Positions 2,312 to 47,866 of a stretch of DNA of 64,000 bases are shown here, piece after piece (positions within the stretch are counted from its first letter, which is position 1; each line of letters begins with the position of its first letter). A program made the translations under genes and the position numbers. The stretch is from Tyzzerella sp. (GTDB taxonomy: Bacteria > Bacillota > Clostridia > Lachnospirales > Lachnospiraceae). The DNA is taken from the NCBI GenBank assembly GCA_017465565.1, contig JAFTWA010000002.1, positions 27,164-91,163 of the forward strand, in the 5' to 3' direction. The notes beneath the pieces are model-generated. The model was given only the letters and a program-made list of their open reading frames with translations, did no database searches and was not told the origin of the DNA.

Positions 2312-2371
2312 TAAATTGTCTTTTTTAGTCCCTTTTCCATAATTTTTAAGTGGATTTTTCTTTATGGCAAA
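2312..2371. repeat. Fragment of the long palindromic element family
   Basis: These 60 bases, just after polC, are nearly identical to an internal stretch of the large palindrome's right arm read in reverse (about 5632-5690) and similar to its left arm (about 4959-5019). The shared core includes TCTTTTTTAGTCC and AAGTGGATTTTTCTTTATGG. Neither end of the large element is present here, so this is a remnant or an internal piece. Like the two fuller copies, it lies between convergent genes (polC and the cold-shock gene). Confidence 0.75.
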
Positions 2372-2397
2372 ATACAAGTTTCTTAAACCATGAAAAT

Positions 2398-3162: not shown

Positions 3163-4785
3163 ATGATTACATTAACAGGTAAAAGCGTCTTTGGTGGCGT
3201 TGAAATCGGTAAGATCGCATTTTACAAAAGAAACAGCCAACAGATTAAGAGATGGCATGTAGATGATACAGAAGCAGAAGTGAATCGTTTTGAACTTGCG
3301 AAAGCGACTGCAGTTGGCCAGCTTCAAGGCTTACATGAAAAAGCGTTAAAAGATGTTGGTGAAGAGAATGCTATGATTTTTGAGATTCACCAGATGATGT
3401 TAGAAGATTTAGATTATCTTGAATCTATTCTTCATATTATCACAAATCAGGAAGTGAACGCAGAATATGCAGTTGCAACGACAGCGGACAACTTTGCAGC
3501 AATGTTTTCTGCAATGGATGATGCTTATATGCAAGGGCGTGCAGCTGACGTAAAAGACGTTTCAGAGCGTATCCTGAATATTTTGACAGGTGCAGGTAAT
3601 GCGGGATTCTCAACAGACGAGCCTGCAATTATCGCTGCAGATGATTTGGTTCCAAGTGAAACTGTACAGCTCGACAAAGAAAAGGTACTTGGTTTCGCAA
3701 CAATGTATGGTTCTTCAAATTCACATACAGCGATTCTTGCAAGAACAATGAATATTCCTGCAATCATTGGACTTGGTGAAGCATTAAAAGAAGAATATGA
3801 CGGAGCTTTTGCAATCATTGATGGTTTTGACGGAAAGGTTTACATAGATCCAGACGAAGAAACATTGGAAGCAATGAAGAAGAAACAGGCAGACGACCGT
3901 GCGAAAAAAGCCTTATTACAAGAATTAAAAGGTAAAGAAAACGTGACCAAGAGTGGTCAGAAAATCAATATTTATGCAAATATCGGAAATACATCGGATG
4001 TTGGTTCTGTACTTCAGAACGATGCCGGCGGAATTGGTTTATTCAGAAGTGAGTTCTTATATTTGGAAAATGATACATTCCCAACAGAAGAACAACAATT
4101 CCAGGTATACAAGACGGTTGCAGAAAATATGGCTGGAAAGAAAGTAATCATCAGAACACTGGATATCGGTGCTGATAAACAAGCAGATTACTTCAACCTT
4201 CCACACGAAGAAAACCCAGCACTTGGATATAGAGCAATCCGCATCTGCCTCACACAGACGGACATTTTTAAAACGCAATTACGTGCTTTGTTACGTGCAT
4301 CTGCATATGGACAGATTGCAATCATGTTCCCAATGATTATTTCAGTTGGTGAAGTAAAACGTATCAAAGAAATTATGGAAGAAGTAAAAGCTGAGTTAAG
4401 AGCAGATGGAATTTCATACAATGAAAATATCGAAACAGGTATTATGATTGAGACACCGGCAGCTGTTATGGTAAGCCACGAGCTTGCAAAAGAAGTTGAC
4501 TTCTTCAGTGTTGGAACGAACGATTTAACACAGTATACATTGGCAATCGACAGACAAAATCCAAAATTAGATGATTTCTATGACCCACATCATCCAGCAG
4601 TTCTTGCAATGATTAAGATGGCGGCAGACAATGCCCATGCGGAAGGAAAATGGATTGGTATCTGTGGAGAATTGGGTGCTGACTTAGAACTTACAGAAAC
4701 ATTCTTAAAGATGGGAATTGATGAATTATCAGTATCACCATCTATGATTCTTCCAGTTCGTAAGAAAGTAAGAGAAGCAGAATAA
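3163..4785 (+). CDS. ptsI: PTS enzyme I (phosphoenolpyruvate-protein phosphotransferase)
   Basis: Takes phosphate from phosphoenolpyruvate and passes it to HPr. The order of parts is an N-terminal HPr-binding helical region, the phosphohistidine domain with SNSHTAILAR (His188), then the PEP-binding barrel with IRTLDIGADK, GYRAIRICL, GTNDLTQY and the late cysteine motif GICGELG. An ATG 12 bases upstream (3151) is in frame, but the AAGGA sits directly against it. The ATG at 3163 has usable spacing and places the active histidine at the family position, so it was chosen, giving 540 residues. It is cotranscribed with ptsH. Its stop lies 14 bases before the large palindromic element, which supplies its terminator. 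Confidence 0.96.
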   Translation: MITLTGKSVFGGVEIGKIAFYKRNSQQIKRWHVDDTEAEVNRFELAKATAVGQLQGLHEKALKDVGEENAMIFEIHQMMLEDLDYLESILHIITNQEVNAEYAVATTADNFAAMFSAMDDAYMQGRAADVKDVSERILNILTGAGNAGFSTDEPAIIAADDLVPSETVQLDKEKVLGFATMYGSSNSHTAILARTMNIPAIIGLGEALKEEYDGAFAIIDGFDGKVYIDPDEETLEAMKKKQADDRAKKALLQELKGKENVTKSGQKINIYANIGNTSDVGSVLQNDAGGIGLFRSEFLYLENDTFPTEEQQFQVYKTVAENMAGKKVIIRTLDIGADKQADYFNLPHEENPALGYRAIRICLTQTDIFKTQLRALLRASAYGQIAIMFPMIISVGEVKRIKEIMEEVKAELRADGISYNENIETGIMIETPAAVMVSHELAKEVDFFSVGTNDLTQYTLAIDRQNPKLDDFYDPHHPAVLAMIKMAADNAHAEGKWIGICGELGADLELTETFLKMGIDELSVSPSMILPVRKKVREAE

Positions 4786-4848
4786 ATTTCAATTATTAAG
4801 GGACTGTTGCAAAATTAAAAATTCAAAAATATAATCAAGGGTTTTTAG

Positions 4849-4874
4849 CCACCACTTTTATGTGGTGGTTTTTT
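4849..4874 (+). terminator. Terminator in left arm, serving ptsI
   Basis: CCACCAC, a 6-base loop, GTGGTGG, then TTTTTT. It lies inside the left arm of the palindrome, 64 bases after the ptsI stop. Confidence 0.85.
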
Positions 4875-5775
4875 GTGAGATTTATACAGTGTTGCATACA
4901 AATTCATGTAAGTATTCTGGGATTTTCCTTATACGGAATTTTGGTTCTCCCAAGGAAAATAAATTGCCTTTTTTAGTCCTTTTTTCATATCTTTTAAGTA
5001 GATTTTTCTTTATAGCAAAAAAGTATTCTTAGATTCCAACAAATCCGCAAAAATTGTTAGCATGGAATATAAGTTTTTCTGCATAAGGAAAATCACAAAA
5101 TGAAATTCATCTTTCGATTCACATTTACTGTTGTGTGAAGTTAGTCCTTCAGCTGCAAGTTTCTCTAAAGTGTCCCATTCTCAAGAAGTTATACACATAC
5201 TTTAAACGGACTCACAGCCAAAAGTTCCACGGTCAGCATATGCGTGAAATAACATCGAGGGATTCTGTGAAAAGTCTTGCAACTGCAGTTCGGAAAATGT
5301 GCAAGCGCGAGAACATGTTTGAGTTTGCGAGTTTGTGAGCGCGCTTGCTAATATCATCTCCGAACGCAGTTGCGTAGCCTTTTCCAGAATCTGTCGCAAA
5401 GTTGTTGAACGCATATGCTGGCCGTGGAATTTTGTCTGTTTGAGCTGTTTTCCGTATGTGCTTTTTTGAGAATAGGGACACTAACAGAAACATAACAGCT
5501 TGCAGATAACTTCACACAACAGTAAATGTGAATCGAAAGATGAATTTCATTTTGTGATTTTCCTTATGTAGAAAAACTTATATTCCACGCTAACAATTTT
5601 TGCGGATTTGTTGGATTCTAAGAATACTTTTGTGCCATAAAGAAAAATCCACTTAAAAATTATGGAAAAAGGACTAAAAAAGACAATTTATTTTCCTTGG
5701 GAGAACCAAAATTTTGTATAAGGAAAATCCCAGAATACTTACATGAATTTGTATGCAACACTGCATAAATCTCAC

Positions 5776-5802
5776 AAAAAAACCACCACATAAAAGTGGT
5801 GG
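5776..5802 (-). terminator. Mirror terminator in right arm
   Basis: The exact mirror of the left-arm terminator, read on the minus strand after the substrate-binding protein gene. It makes the element a two-way transcription stop. Confidence 0.85.
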
Positions 5803-5858
5803 CTAAAAACCCTTGATTATATTTTTGAATTTTTAATTTTGCAACAGTTCCTTAGTCG

Positions 5859-6857
5859 CTATTCCGCAGCTTTCGTGGCAAATTCTGTACTTACTAGGTC
5901 TTCGTAAGGAGGACGGTCTGTAAGTTCACCTGCTGAATCTAATATATCCAGCAATAAGTCAAAGCTTTCTTCTTCGAACACCAGGTTTTCTTTCCAGGTA
6001 TCCTGCTCGTAATAACGAGTAATGATGGTCTCAAGTGTTTCCATATCTGTTTCTTTAAACTGAGGAGCAATCGCATAAGCAATGTCCTTTGGGGAATGGG
6101 ATTGTACATAAGCCATACCCTTCTGAAGTGCATTTGTAAAGCTTTGAATAATATCTGGATTTTCTTCTATATAACTTCCTTTTGCAGAAAATGCTGTGTA
6201 AGGAACATAGCCGCTATCTTCGCCTAGAGATGCCACAACATAGCCTTTGCCTGCCTTTTCAAGAGACGTGGCATGTGGCTCGAACTCCACTGTAAAATCG
6301 GCTTCACTATCTGGGAAGGCTGCAGCAGTAGAACCAAAGTCAATGCTTTGATTGATAGTGAGGTCTGTTTCAGGGTCAATGTCATTTTGTTTTAAAATGT
6401 ATTCAAATACCATTTGTGGCATACCGCCCTTTCGTCCGCCAAGTACATAAGAACCCTTCAAATCTTCCCAGGTAAAATCTGGCATTTCTTCGCGGGCAAC
6501 CAAGAAGTTTCCGGCACGCTGAGTCAACTGGGCAAAGTTGACAACATAGTCGTTAGCCCCTTCGTTATAGGTGTAGATAGAAGCTTCGGCACCCATGAAT
6601 CCGATATCAGCTTCGCCAGAAAGAACCGCAGTCATTGTCTTATCAGCGCCAAAGCCAGTGACAAGCTCCAAATCAATACCTTCTTCTACAAAGTACCCTT
6701 CTTCAATAGCAACATACATTGGCGCATAAAAAATAGAATGAGCCACTTCATTTAATACGACTTTTGTTAAACCGCTTTCTTCTTTTGGAGAACATGCAAA
6801 TAAAGAGGTAACAGCGAGAGCTGTTGTGAGAACAAAAGCAAATATACGCTTTTTCAT
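5859..6857 (-). CDS. ABC transporter substrate-binding lipoprotein, NMT1/THI5-like
   Basis: A 332-residue extracytoplasmic binding protein of the SsuA/ThiY/NMT1 type. The N-terminus is a lipoprotein signal with LFAC and the lipidated cysteine at residue 22. The fold-typical text FYAPMYVAIEEGYFVEEGIDLEL-like region follows at about 43-66 (key words APMYVA, GYF, EEGIDLE), then GADIGFMG-like EADIGFMG. Such proteins deliver sulfonates, nitrate or thiamine-pyrimidine precursors; the substrate cannot be told here. No permease or ATPase gene is next to it. The stop codon lies 7 bases from the large palindrome, where the rest of an operon could once have been. A 63-codon gene precedes it by 49 bases, likely cotranscribed. 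Confidence 0.88.
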   Translation of the reverse strand: MKKRIFAFVLTTALAVTSLFACSPKEESGLTKVVLNEVAHSIFYAPMYVAIEEGYFVEEGIDLELVTGFGADKTMTAVLSGEADIGFMGAEASIYTYNEGANDYVVNFAQLTQRAGNFLVAREEMPDFTWEDLKGSYVLGGRKGGMPQMVFEYILKQNDIDPETDLTINQSIDFGSTAAAFPDSEADFTVEFEPHATSLEKAGKGYVVASLGEDSGYVPYTAFSAKGSYIEENPDIIQSFTNALQKGMAYVQSHSPKDIAYAIAPQFKETDMETLETIITRYYEQDTWKENLVFEEESFDLLLDILDSAGELTDRPPYEDLVSTEFATKAAE

Positions 6858-8314: not shown

Positions 8315-10552
8315 ATGAGCATTTACGATACATTGAATAACGAACAGAGAGAGGCAGTTTATCATACGGAAGGACCACTTCTTATTTTAGCAGGTGCGGG
8401 TTCTGGGAAAACCAGAGTTTTGACGCACAGAATTGCCTATTTGATTGATGAAAAAGGAGTAAATCCCTGGAATATTTTAGCCATAACCTTTACCAATAAG
8501 GCGGCAGGTGAGATGCGGGAGCGTGTGGACCGTATCGTGGGATTTGGCTCAGAAAGCATTTGGGTCAGTACGTTTCACTCTACCTGTGTAAGGATTTTGA
8601 GACGCCATATTGACCGTCTGGGATACAGCACGAATTTCACGATTTACGATGCGGATGACCAGAAGACCTTGATGAAGGACGTGTGTAAGCTTCTTCAGAT
8701 TGATACCAAGATTTATAAAGAGAGGGCGCTTCTCGCGGCGATTTCAGCGGCAAAAGACGAGATGATTATGCCGGACGAGTTTGAACTGAATGCGGCAGGC
8801 GATTACCACAAGCAAAAAATTGCCAAGGTTTACCGTGAATACGAAAAGCAGCTAAGGGCAAATAATGCACTGGATTTCGACGACTTGCTGGTAAAGACCG
8901 TACAGCTCCTGCAGACGCAGCCAGATATTTTGGAGTATTATCAGGAACGTTTCCGCTATATTATGGTGGACGAGTACCAGGATACGAACACTGTACAATT
9001 TAAGCTTATCAGCATCTTGGCGAAAAAATACCAGAATCTCTGCGTGGTAGGGGATGATGACCAGTCGATTTACAAATTCCGCGGTGCAAATATCAAAAAT
9101 ATCTTGAATTTTGAAAATGAGTTTGAGCATGCGCGCGTAATTAAATTGGAACAGAATTATCGTTCTACAGAAAATATTCTGAACGCTGCAAATGGTGTAA
9201 TCCGCAACAATTATGGACGTAAGGACAAATCTCTTTGGACCGAAAATGGGGAAGGAGATAAGATTAATTTCCACATGTTTGACAATGCGTATGATGAGGC
9301 AGACTATGTGGTAAGTGATATTAAAAGTCATGTGCGGGAGGGAATCCGTTCCTACAATGACCATGCTATTTTATATCGTACCAATGCCCAATCCCGTATG
9401 TTTGAAGAGCGGTTTGTGGCGGCAAATATTCCGTATAAAGTAGTTGGCGGCATTAATTTCTATGCGCGAAAGGAAATTAAGGATTTGCTGGCATATTTAA
9501 AGACGATTGACAATGGGATGGATGACTTGGCGGTCCGCCGTATCATCAATGTACCAAAACGTGGCATTGGTCTTACAACAATTAACCGTGTGCAGGAAAA
9601 TGCGATGGAGCGTGGAGTAGGCTTTTATGAGGCGCTTCTCACAGCAGATATGATTCCTGGTATTGGAAGAAGCGCAAGCAAGCTGACTTCTTTTGTTGCG
9701 CTGATTGAACACTTTAAAGAAAGTGCGAAGACCATGCTGGTATCAGAGCTCATGAAGGAGATTCTGGATTATACAGGGTATATTGAGGAACTGGAAGCGG
9801 AAAGTGAGGAAGAAGCACAGGCAAGGATTGAAAATATCGATGAACTTTTAAGTAAGATTGCCATTTATGAGGAATCCTGTGAGGATGAGGAGCCGACACT
9901 TAGTGGTTTCCTGGAAGAAGTGGCACTGGTGGCGGATATTGACAGTCTGGATGAATCGAATGACTATGTGGTGCTTATGACCTTGCATAGCGCGAAAGGG
10001 CTGGAATTTCCAGAGGTCTATCTGGTTGGCATGGAGGATGGTATATTCCCAAGCTATATGACAATCACGGCAGATGACCCTGCAGAAATTGAGGAGGAAA
10101 GACGTCTTTGTTATGTGGGCATTACGAGAGCCATGGAGAATCTGACGATGACCTGTGCAAAACGAAGAATGGTGCGTGGTGAAACCCAGTATAATAAGAT
10201 GTCACGTTTCCTAAAAGAGGTTCCTGTTCATTTGTTTGCTTCAAAAGGTAATCTGGATATAGATGTAGACAAGGAGAAACTCGAAAGCGCAAGACAGAAT
10301 GCTTATTTCCAGGCAAAGCAGGCGTTTCGTGCACAGGCATTTTCCACACCGAAGCCGGTGCAGAACTTTGGGACAAAGTCTGGCGAAGGCTTGAGTTATG
10401 ATGTGGGTGACCGCGTGAGACATATGAAATTTGGAGAAGGTTTAGTGCTTTCCATCGTTGCGGGAGGAAGAGATTACGAAGTAACGGTGGATTTCGATAG
10501 TGTAGGTGTTAAAAAAATGTTTGCAGGCTTTGCAAAGCTTCAAAAAATCTAG
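8315..10552 (+). CDS. pcrA: ATP-dependent DNA helicase PcrA/UvrD
   Basis: A superfamily 1A helicase that unwinds DNA 3' to 5' in repair and in rolling-circle plasmid replication. Visible motifs are Walker A AGAGSGKT (Lys32), motif Ia TFTNKAAGEM, Walker B VDEYQDTN, motif III GDDDQSIYKFRG, motif IV QNYRST, motif V TLHSAKGLEF and motif VI YVGITRA. The C-terminus has the PcrA-specific tail with GDRVRHMKFGEG. An in-frame ATG exists at 8294, but the AGGAG site lies between it and the ATG at 8315, so 8315 is the start, giving 745 residues, normal for the family. Confidence 0.96.
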   Translation: MSIYDTLNNEQREAVYHTEGPLLILAGAGSGKTRVLTHRIAYLIDEKGVNPWNILAITFTNKAAGEMRERVDRIVGFGSESIWVSTFHSTCVRILRRHIDRLGYSTNFTIYDADDQKTLMKDVCKLLQIDTKIYKERALLAAISAAKDEMIMPDEFELNAAGDYHKQKIAKVYREYEKQLRANNALDFDDLLVKTVQLLQTQPDILEYYQERFRYIMVDEYQDTNTVQFKLISILAKKYQNLCVVGDDDQSIYKFRGANIKNILNFENEFEHARVIKLEQNYRSTENILNAANGVIRNNYGRKDKSLWTENGEGDKINFHMFDNAYDEADYVVSDIKSHVREGIRSYNDHAILYRTNAQSRMFEERFVAANIPYKVVGGINFYARKEIKDLLAYLKTIDNGMDDLAVRRIINVPKRGIGLTTINRVQENAMERGVGFYEALLTADMIPGIGRSASKLTSFVALIEHFKESAKTMLVSELMKEILDYTGYIEELEAESEEEAQARIENIDELLSKIAIYEESCEDEEPTLSGFLEEVALVADIDSLDESNDYVVLMTLHSAKGLEFPEVYLVGMEDGIFPSYMTITADDPAEIEEERRLCYVGITRAMENLTMTCAKRRMVRGETQYNKMSRFLKEVPVHLFASKGNLDIDVDKEKLESARQNAYFQAKQAFRAQAFSTPKPVQNFGTKSGEGLSYDVGDRVRHMKFGEGLVLSIVAGGRDYEVTVDFDSVGVKKMFAGFAKLQKI

Positions 10553-10599
10553 TTTGCATAAATTTATAAAAACTACATATGGTAATATCAGTGCAATAA

Positions 10600-10608
10600 T
10601 GGTATAAT
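10600..10608 (+). promoter_or_regulatory. Extended -10 promoter
   Basis: TGGTATAAT is a perfect extended -10 box 46 bases before the small membrane protein start. No good -35 is seen, as is usual for this class. Confidence 0.6.
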
Positions 10609-10654
10609 ATTTGTATTATAGTTGAACTTGAAAAAGTGGAAAGGACGTGTTTTT

Positions 10655-47499: not shown

Positions 47500-47866
47500 A
47501 AGGGGCTGTTTCAAAATAAAGAAAACAAAGATTATAATATGAGGTTTTGTCCACATTGCGTGGTGATTTTTTCAATTGCAAGAAATCATGTGGCGATTTT
47601 CCATATACAAAAAAACCTGTTTGCAGTGCTAACACTTTTGACAAAACCCTTAGCATATCAGCACAATCATTTCCCATGAGGAAAAATTCACATAAGAAAT
47701 CATAAAAATCGGCAAAAAACAAGAATTTTTTATCCTTGGAGCATCAAAAATATTGCATATGGAAAATTGGAACATGATTTCTTGTGATTGCATAAAAAAC
47801 CACCACGCAATGTGGACAAAATCTCATATTATAATTTTTGTTTTCTTTATTTTGCAACAGCCCCTT
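47500..47866. repeat. Second palindromic element (0.37 kb)
   Basis: The 386-base gap between two convergent genes is filled by an inverted repeat. The arms are about 105 bases and nearly identical (left from AAGGGGCTGTTTC, right inverted AAGGGGCTGTTGC). Ends match those of the 1.05 kb element (GGG(A/G)CTGTTGCAAAAT). Each arm has a short CCAC/GTGG hairpin before a T-run about 50 bases in, as in the larger copy but weaker. Read in reverse, the middle (CTCCAAGGATAAAAAATTC ... GTGTTAGCA) is diverged but alignable to the larger element's arm (CTCCCAAGGAAAATAAATT ... TTGTTAGCA). It lies 7 bases from one stop codon and 12 from the other. Confidence 0.82.

Follow-up and report, generated by a model that had tools for sequence, protein, structure and literature searches.

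The window analyzed here is a 64,000-nt stretch of contig JAFTWA010000002.1 from a Tyzzerella sp. of the Lachnospiraceae. Within it, the gap at 4786-5858 is filled by a palindrome whose neighboring genes are convergent. On one side lies ptsI (plus strand, stop at 4785), and across the gap lies a transporter-type gene, a substrate-binding-protein-like ORF (5859-6857, minus strand); both names come from a reading of the translations. By self-comparison, positions 4797-5854 are self-complementary over 1058 bp, with 86% agreement overall. The features referred to below are the following:

4797..5854, unstranded: whole palindromic element, with outermost bases TAAGG(G/A)ACTGTTGCAAAAT on both sides
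4797..5143, plus strand: left outer arm, 96% complementary to the right arm
5507..5854, minus strand: right outer arm, 96% complementary to the left arm
4847..4870, plus strand: inward terminator-like hairpin in the left arm (consensus scan), facing ptsI transcripts
5781..5804, minus strand: inward terminator-like hairpin in the right arm (consensus scan)
5142..5421, plus strand: conserved core; its alignment includes 14 further copies, taken from its own and three other genomes of the genus
5256..5396, plus strand: apical hairpin, a match of covariance model R1 and itself one of the 15 model seeds
5316..5333, plus strand: tip TGTTTGAGTTTGCGAGTT, a variant of the widespread TGTYTGAGCGNAGCGAGTT
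5301-5309 and 5340-5348: GCAAGCGCG and CGCGCTTGC, respectively, read from the sequence
2312..2385, minus strand: solo element fragment of 74 bp, 92% identical (BLAST, C48:29475-29548)
47500..47866, unstranded: another related palindrome of the window, consisting of coreless arms and likewise in a convergent gap

When the outermost 345 bp of the two arms are aligned, they agree at 330 of 344 positions (96%) and differ at the other 14. Further inward, in 60-bp steps, agreement is 80% in a transition step and then 60, 72, and 56%. The original prediction had described a near-perfect palindrome without a gene, reaching from ptsI to the next gene, with near-identical outer and diverged inner arms, and this description is borne out (96% in the outer arms vs 56-72% in the inner ones). 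The span first given, 4800-5851, corresponds to a real palindrome but stops 3 bp short at each end. No convincing gene was found inside: the sole listed ORF of at least 80 aa encodes 86 aa (5233-5493, minus strand) and has no Pfam match, and no transposase gene appears in the ORF list, the Pfam search, or the frame comparison. A coding remnant in the core, suggested by one peptide-like frame seen by eye, was rejected, as it has no Pfam match and the open frames vary among copies. In the plasmid and phage record collections there is no DNA similar to the 1058-bp element. The minimum free energy of the palindrome as RNA is -705.2 kcal/mol, a value given without a shuffled comparison at that length. 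No Rfam family reaches its gathering score for the element in the window, and searches at E values up to 10 give weak matches only. Elsewhere in the window, Rfam models identify a THF riboswitch (RF01831, 13493-13591, plus strand), a T-box leader (RF00230, 38214-38443, plus strand), and a 6S RNA (RF00013, 34954-35131, plus strand).

A BLASTN search for other copies had been proposed as a check, and finding neither other copies nor conservation was named as a result that would speak against the element. The search returned 81 matches in the home genome, i.e., the genome carrying the window (62 contigs, 3.22 Mb, 88.6% complete), with many places matched on both strands, and the core proved to be conserved in relatives. 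Among the stretches fetched for these matches, 15 related palindromes of 367-1182 bp could be delimited, a count that leaves out partial copies, among them L013 (which begins at a contig end) and an arm pair in L029. Core-deleted copies are present at C40, C34, and window position 47500. Across the 41 genomes searched by BLAST, the element was matched in 5, the home genome included; in G003, G007, and G009 the core part alone of the 1058-bp query was matched, and in G002 fragments of at most 33 bp. The genus elements that we read outside the home genome measure 244-624 bp and are 70-80% self-complementary, and kilobase copies were seen in the home genome alone. The home genome also contains a 413-bp palindrome (L480:5478-5890, 62%) unlike the three family members compared. 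Another palindrome, of 230 bp (L479:1156-1385), holds several GGGGCC-containing hairpins and apparently represents another repeat family.

The empty counterpart of the locus is found in the sister species G008, whose ptsI is 87% identical. There, the short gap between the same two convergent genes lacks a palindrome and holds an ordinary terminator-like inverted repeat, and both flanks of the window copy match this empty site. After ptsI, G009 and G004 carry other genes, and the G003 contig breaks off shortly past ptsI, within sequence that by eye resembles the G003 palindrome L067. It is highly improbable that the palindrome is an assembly artifact produced by a false inverted join, because the home genome holds 15 related palindromes, a sister species retains the empty site, and some relatives have target-site duplications. 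In favor of an artifact, contigs C2, C5, C10, C26, and C29 do begin inside copies, but the arms of the window copy differ at 14 positions, its flanks match the empty site on both sides, palindromic copies with different sequence occupy other loci in the home and other genomes, and further assemblies contain relatives too, among them G256 and G071, each a single contig.

The suggestion that the locus holds a mobile element is supported by the many copies, by the empty site, and by the target-site duplications of some relatives. In G071, for instance, three copies have perfect duplications of at least 8 bp and a fourth matches at 6 of 8 positions. More broadly, 15 of 63 elements have a symmetric direct repeat of at least 7 bp, compared with a mean of 4.25 and a maximum of 8 in 40 shuffles, although in several of these 15 the repeat lies away from a clear element end and is probably due to chance. 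At the window copy no target-site duplication was seen, 48 of the 63 tested elements are without one, and the high-copy genomes G287, G277, and G288 show no shared duplication. Transposon-like tips GGGRCTGTTGCAAAAT are present at the ends of many copies, and homologous cores lie, by eye, within different end types. GGCTCTACAACAAATGTTGGG is found at the ends of both L030 and L034, relatives in G007, with an 8-bp repeat at L034 and 7 of 8 positions at L030 (by eye); these two may be of the ISL3 type, which has GG-starting ends and an 8-bp duplication. Nested insertion into the apex of another palindrome was considered and set aside because core-deleted derivatives fit better.

The delimited copies are concentrated between convergent genes. 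With ORFs called mechanically, the 15 palindromes of the home genome occupy 11 convergent, 4 co-directional, and 0 divergent gaps, and 8 of the 11 in convergent gaps end at most 20 nt from both stop codons. In the background, 31 of 350 gene pairs are convergent (unselected sample plus window, 464 kb; Fisher p 1e-8). Against such a concentration, the unselected sample contains 8 palindromes of at least 100 bp outside the window, only 1 of them in a convergent gap; L464 (strongly) and L472 (weakly) resemble the element family and lie in co-directional gaps, so that their inclusion gives 11 of 17 convergent. Inward terminator-like stems are present in both arms of the window copy, and several other copies have a similar stem in at least one arm. 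Judged from these sequence features, the window element is probably a two-way terminator. The two-way insulator proposed earlier is partly supported, by an inward terminator-like hairpin in each arm and by 11 of 15 copies in convergent gaps; its function stands as a prediction. Tip loci in other genomes occupy convergent gaps in 34 of 120 cases and divergent gaps in 15 of 120, and some tips fall inside a predicted ORF.

Arms and core differ in their mode of evolution. The two arms of a copy agree at 330/344, 334/345, and 338/344 positions in the three copies compared, against 267 to 317 of 341-343 positions between copies. Changes mirrored in both arms outnumber single-arm changes by 47 to 20 between the window copy and C32 and by 64 to 13 between C32 and C2a, and the corresponding counts between the window copy and C2a are 18 and 16. 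The leftover arm mismatches have no strand preference (13 vs 12 over the three copies). Together, the mirrored changes and the absent strand preference fit template switching, by which the pairing of hairpin arms can be fixed according to PMC8794818; the outer arms co-evolve inside each copy without strand bias, as this process would produce. For the core the relation is reversed: left and right sides agree at 56-72% in the window copy, while the window copy and C32 agree at 81-98% over the same steps. The idea that inner divergence is what keeps the palindrome stable is not supported; the inner part is a core conserved between copies and between species. For 39 of 52 predicted core pairs, the 15-sequence alignment includes at least one member in which both partners have changed and still pair.

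A covariance model built from the core, with 15 seeds including the window sequence, has matches in half of the ten genus genomes (5 of 10), with 9 loci in G000, 12 in G003, 2 in G007, 4 in G009, and 1 in G008 (opposite-strand matches merged). It also matches 13 of 250 sampled family genomes, the home genome included. Outside the genus there are 17 core-model loci, of which 16 were re-matched, 10 with the exact tip TGTYTGAGCGNAGCGAGTT and 6 with a variant; L075 was not re-matched by the core model, yet the exact tip is present. The exact tip was matched 59 times in 12 of 120 family genomes, compared with 1 reversed-control match, and 0 times in the home genome, whose tips are variants. In the named-genome collection, it occurs in at least 118 stretches, where we estimate that about 15 would be expected by chance in the whole collection. 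The hosts belong to several phyla and include Marinobacter, Variovorax, Flavobacterium, Flammeovirga, Luteimonas, Fusobacterium, and Clostridium. Among whole genomes, 17 chosen for carrying a tip have 1 to 69 exact matches each and 0 reversed-control matches, with 69 in Clostridium sp. KNHs205, 53 in Flammeovirga, 28 in Flavobacterium sufflavum, and 28 in a Marinobacter. Within three of these genomes, 16, 13, and 5 copies were aligned; their similarity extends over the unit and ceases beyond it.

Tip counts from viruses were discarded as support: of 87 viral stretches, 80 were examined, and 40 of their 80 tips fall within ORFs, with 36 of these 40 belonging to a single gene of one phage group. 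The related phage contigs L234, L237, L241, L250, L291, and L303 share the position of an intergenic tip hairpin, which lies between ORFs of 216 and 168 aa. A tip subtype flanked as GAGGAC-tip-CCGCAG recurs in unrelated hosts (L122, L196, L197, L210, L217, and others). GCGNAGC sequences are known to form very stable DNA mini-hairpins. None of the 17 tip loci submitted to Rfam reaches the gathering score of any family, six tip strings of 15-16 nt are absent from the literature searched, and no description of a tip-hairpin family was found in that literature, including an excerpt of PMC2267715. The apex of the element belongs to an apparently unnamed hairpin family with a near-fixed tip that is spread over several phyla, frequently at high copy number.

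The pairing beside the tip provides information on how this hairpin may act. A stem of at least 8 bp adjoins the tip at 86 of 122 loci, compared with 5.6% after partner shuffling; the corresponding values are 18 of 29 vs 11.5% in the family set and 16 of 34 vs 8.8% for viral loci. On the tip strand, G.T pairs outnumber A.C pairs by 45 to 4 over 30 bp on each side (126 loci that are not independent, p 8e-10), with 7 vs 0 in the family set and 9 vs 4 (not significant) at viral loci. Over 60 bp, the counts are 81 vs 34, with 22 vs 17 in the family set and 13 vs 6 at viral loci (both not significant), and an earlier count in 59 hairpins of the genus and family gave 71 vs 44. Because G.T exceeds A.C beside the tip, one strand probably functions, and the apical stem has probably been selected as a single strand, either RNA or ssDNA. 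As for the RNA source suggested earlier, the strand-specific wobble is the observation that bears on it, and the element may be one. In addition, at 17 of 86 loci (control mean 6.2, maximum 12) bases upstream are complementary to the loop of a hairpin further downstream, which weakly suggests a downstream pseudoknot in a subset of tip loci.

Long perfect palindromes are generally inviable, and the distribution of the SbcD profile (TIGR00619, cut-off 77.65 bits) may be relevant to how they are tolerated here. Within the genus, SbcD is below the cut-off or absent in 5 of 5 core-bearing genomes, four of which are <90% complete, and above it in 4 of 5 genomes without the core (Fisher p 0.048), G006 having neither. 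Among nine tip-bearing genomes outside the genus, SbcD exceeds the cut-off in five (G071, G139, G206, G277, and G287) and does not in four (G105, G276, G281, and G288); in five genomes outside the genus without the exact tip, it was detected in G011, G012, G013, and G044 and not in G021. The palindromes of 533-638 bp (73-76%) that G206 carries alongside its SbcD match argue against a simple tolerance rule. In E. coli, the hairpin that a 246-bp interrupted palindrome forms is cut by SbcCD (PMC3315005). Loss of SbcD, as judged from its profile, is a possible but weak explanation for the tolerance of palindromes in the genus, which, with ten genomes sampled, may offer a natural experiment on the limits to palindromes in bacteria.

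With moderate confidence, we interpret the element as a non-coding, non-autonomous, mobile giant hairpin whose core belongs to the cross-phylum tip family and which, lying mostly in convergent gaps, would act as a two-way terminator. The core is an imperfect hairpin with a near-fixed apical tip that would be recognized as a single strand, RNA or ssDNA, and in the home genome it is enclosed by long outer arms with transposon-like ends. An enzyme acting in trans would mobilize the element, DNA template switching within each copy would keep the outer arms complementary, and the inward terminators would bring about bidirectional termination in vivo between convergent genes; lack of the SbcCD hairpin nuclease may help such palindromes to be tolerated. 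A broader and more tentative proposal, which we regard as possible, is that cross-phylum mobile hairpins with a near-invariant 19-nt tip and diverging paired stems spread in single-stranded form (RNA or ssDNA) among bacteria and some phages, with machinery that is possibly host-encoded, and that some lineages, perhaps those without SbcCD, extend the arms into kilobase palindromes that take over the termination of convergent genes.

Other explanations account for part of these observations. One is that the core is a functional small RNA gene, either a host gene or an RNA parasite, with the dispersed copies as paralogues; in its favor are the strand-specific G.U-type wobble in the apical stem, the two-sided compensatory changes in the core, the recurrent internal-loop motifs (by eye), and the loop complementarity at 17 of 86 loci. 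We nevertheless consider this rather unlikely, given that in three sampled genomes numerous copies are scattered and their flanks differ, that the exact tip is patchily distributed among family genomes, that the Rfam matches are far below gathering scores, and that the region has 3 promoter-like sites where shuffled sequence averages 4.1; ssDNA is, moreover, also compatible with the G.T wobble. Also doubtful, and to a greater degree, is an ordinary MITE, an internally deleted insertion-sequence relic that is an inverted repeat over its full length and whose core has no function. One tip kept across phyla would be unexpected for such a relic, the core is better conserved than the arms, and homologous cores lie inside different end types, although the GGGRCTGTTGCAAAAT tips of many copies, the 8-bp duplications of some relatives, and the existence of core-deleted copies are MITE-like. 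A transposase of the PF13751 type, a candidate enzyme for GGGRCTGTTGCAAAAT ends, was rejected as a partner after no match was found in the 88.6%-complete home genome, where no autonomous partner sharing the element ends was seen in the PF13751 search made for that purpose. The 25 largest neighbor-protein clusters include no specific recurrent neighbor in named genomes: only two of them, generic and read as ABC-ATPase-like and acyl-CoA-ligase-like, come from named genomes, and the viral clusters reflect phage relatedness.

We regard as improbable a REP/REPIN-like hairpin mobilized by a RAYT (TnpA-REP) HUH transposase. The elements are palindromic, often intergenic, and present in high copy; several genomes have them as inverted pairs with a spacing of ~200 bp, the three high-copy genomes show no target-site duplication, and a Y1_Tnp match exists in 13 of 21 hairpin-bearing family genomes and 10 of 17 other tip-bearing genomes. 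The match is absent, however, from 8 of the 21 (G003, G008, G062, G073, G085, G124, G206, and G256) and from 7 of the 17, including G279 (19 tips), G281 (26), and G288 (28), and RAYT/Y1 as the mobilizer is unlikely with so many carriers lacking it. The home genome has a single RAYT-like Y1 protein of 266 aa (L348; C57, ~10308-10640) with its own inverted repeats of ~50 bp; the flanks of this locus differ from the element, and the tip is absent within it. In G024, short repeats adjoin a 279-aa RAYT-like gene (L345).

Dispersed palindromic repeats are already known; new here are the cross-phylum tip, a core that is shared by elements with differing ends, and the absence of any known enzyme. A hairpin family present in genomes of the Clostridium, Flavobacterium, and Marinobacter type at up to tens of exact tips each, with no Rfam entry and no obvious enzyme, would constitute a new class of bacterial dispersed repeat. 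Like MITEs, the elements are non-coding and intergenic, with terminal inverted repeats and, in some members, target-site duplications. Unlike MITEs, they are palindromic over their whole length, contain a conserved asymmetric core with a cross-phylum tip, and have several end types around one core, with no source transposase found in searches for PF13751 and Y1. With the REP/REPIN elements of TnpA-REP (RAYT), they share high-copy intergenic palindromes and inverted pairs, and REPs are processed as folded single strands (PMC8266576); the hairpins described here are far longer, keep a near-fixed apical sequence across phyla, and occur in many carriers without a Y1 match. Compensatory changes, a conserved loop, and strand-specific wobble are common to the structured non-coding RNAs of Rfam; covariation and one-strand G-U tolerance are indeed found in the core hairpin and are also compatible with ssDNA, whereas the many dispersed copies and the lack of a family at gathering score set our elements apart. 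Finally, integron attC sites are imperfect hairpins used as folded ssDNA, and, set against this general description, the present hairpins differ in that their core is conserved in sequence.
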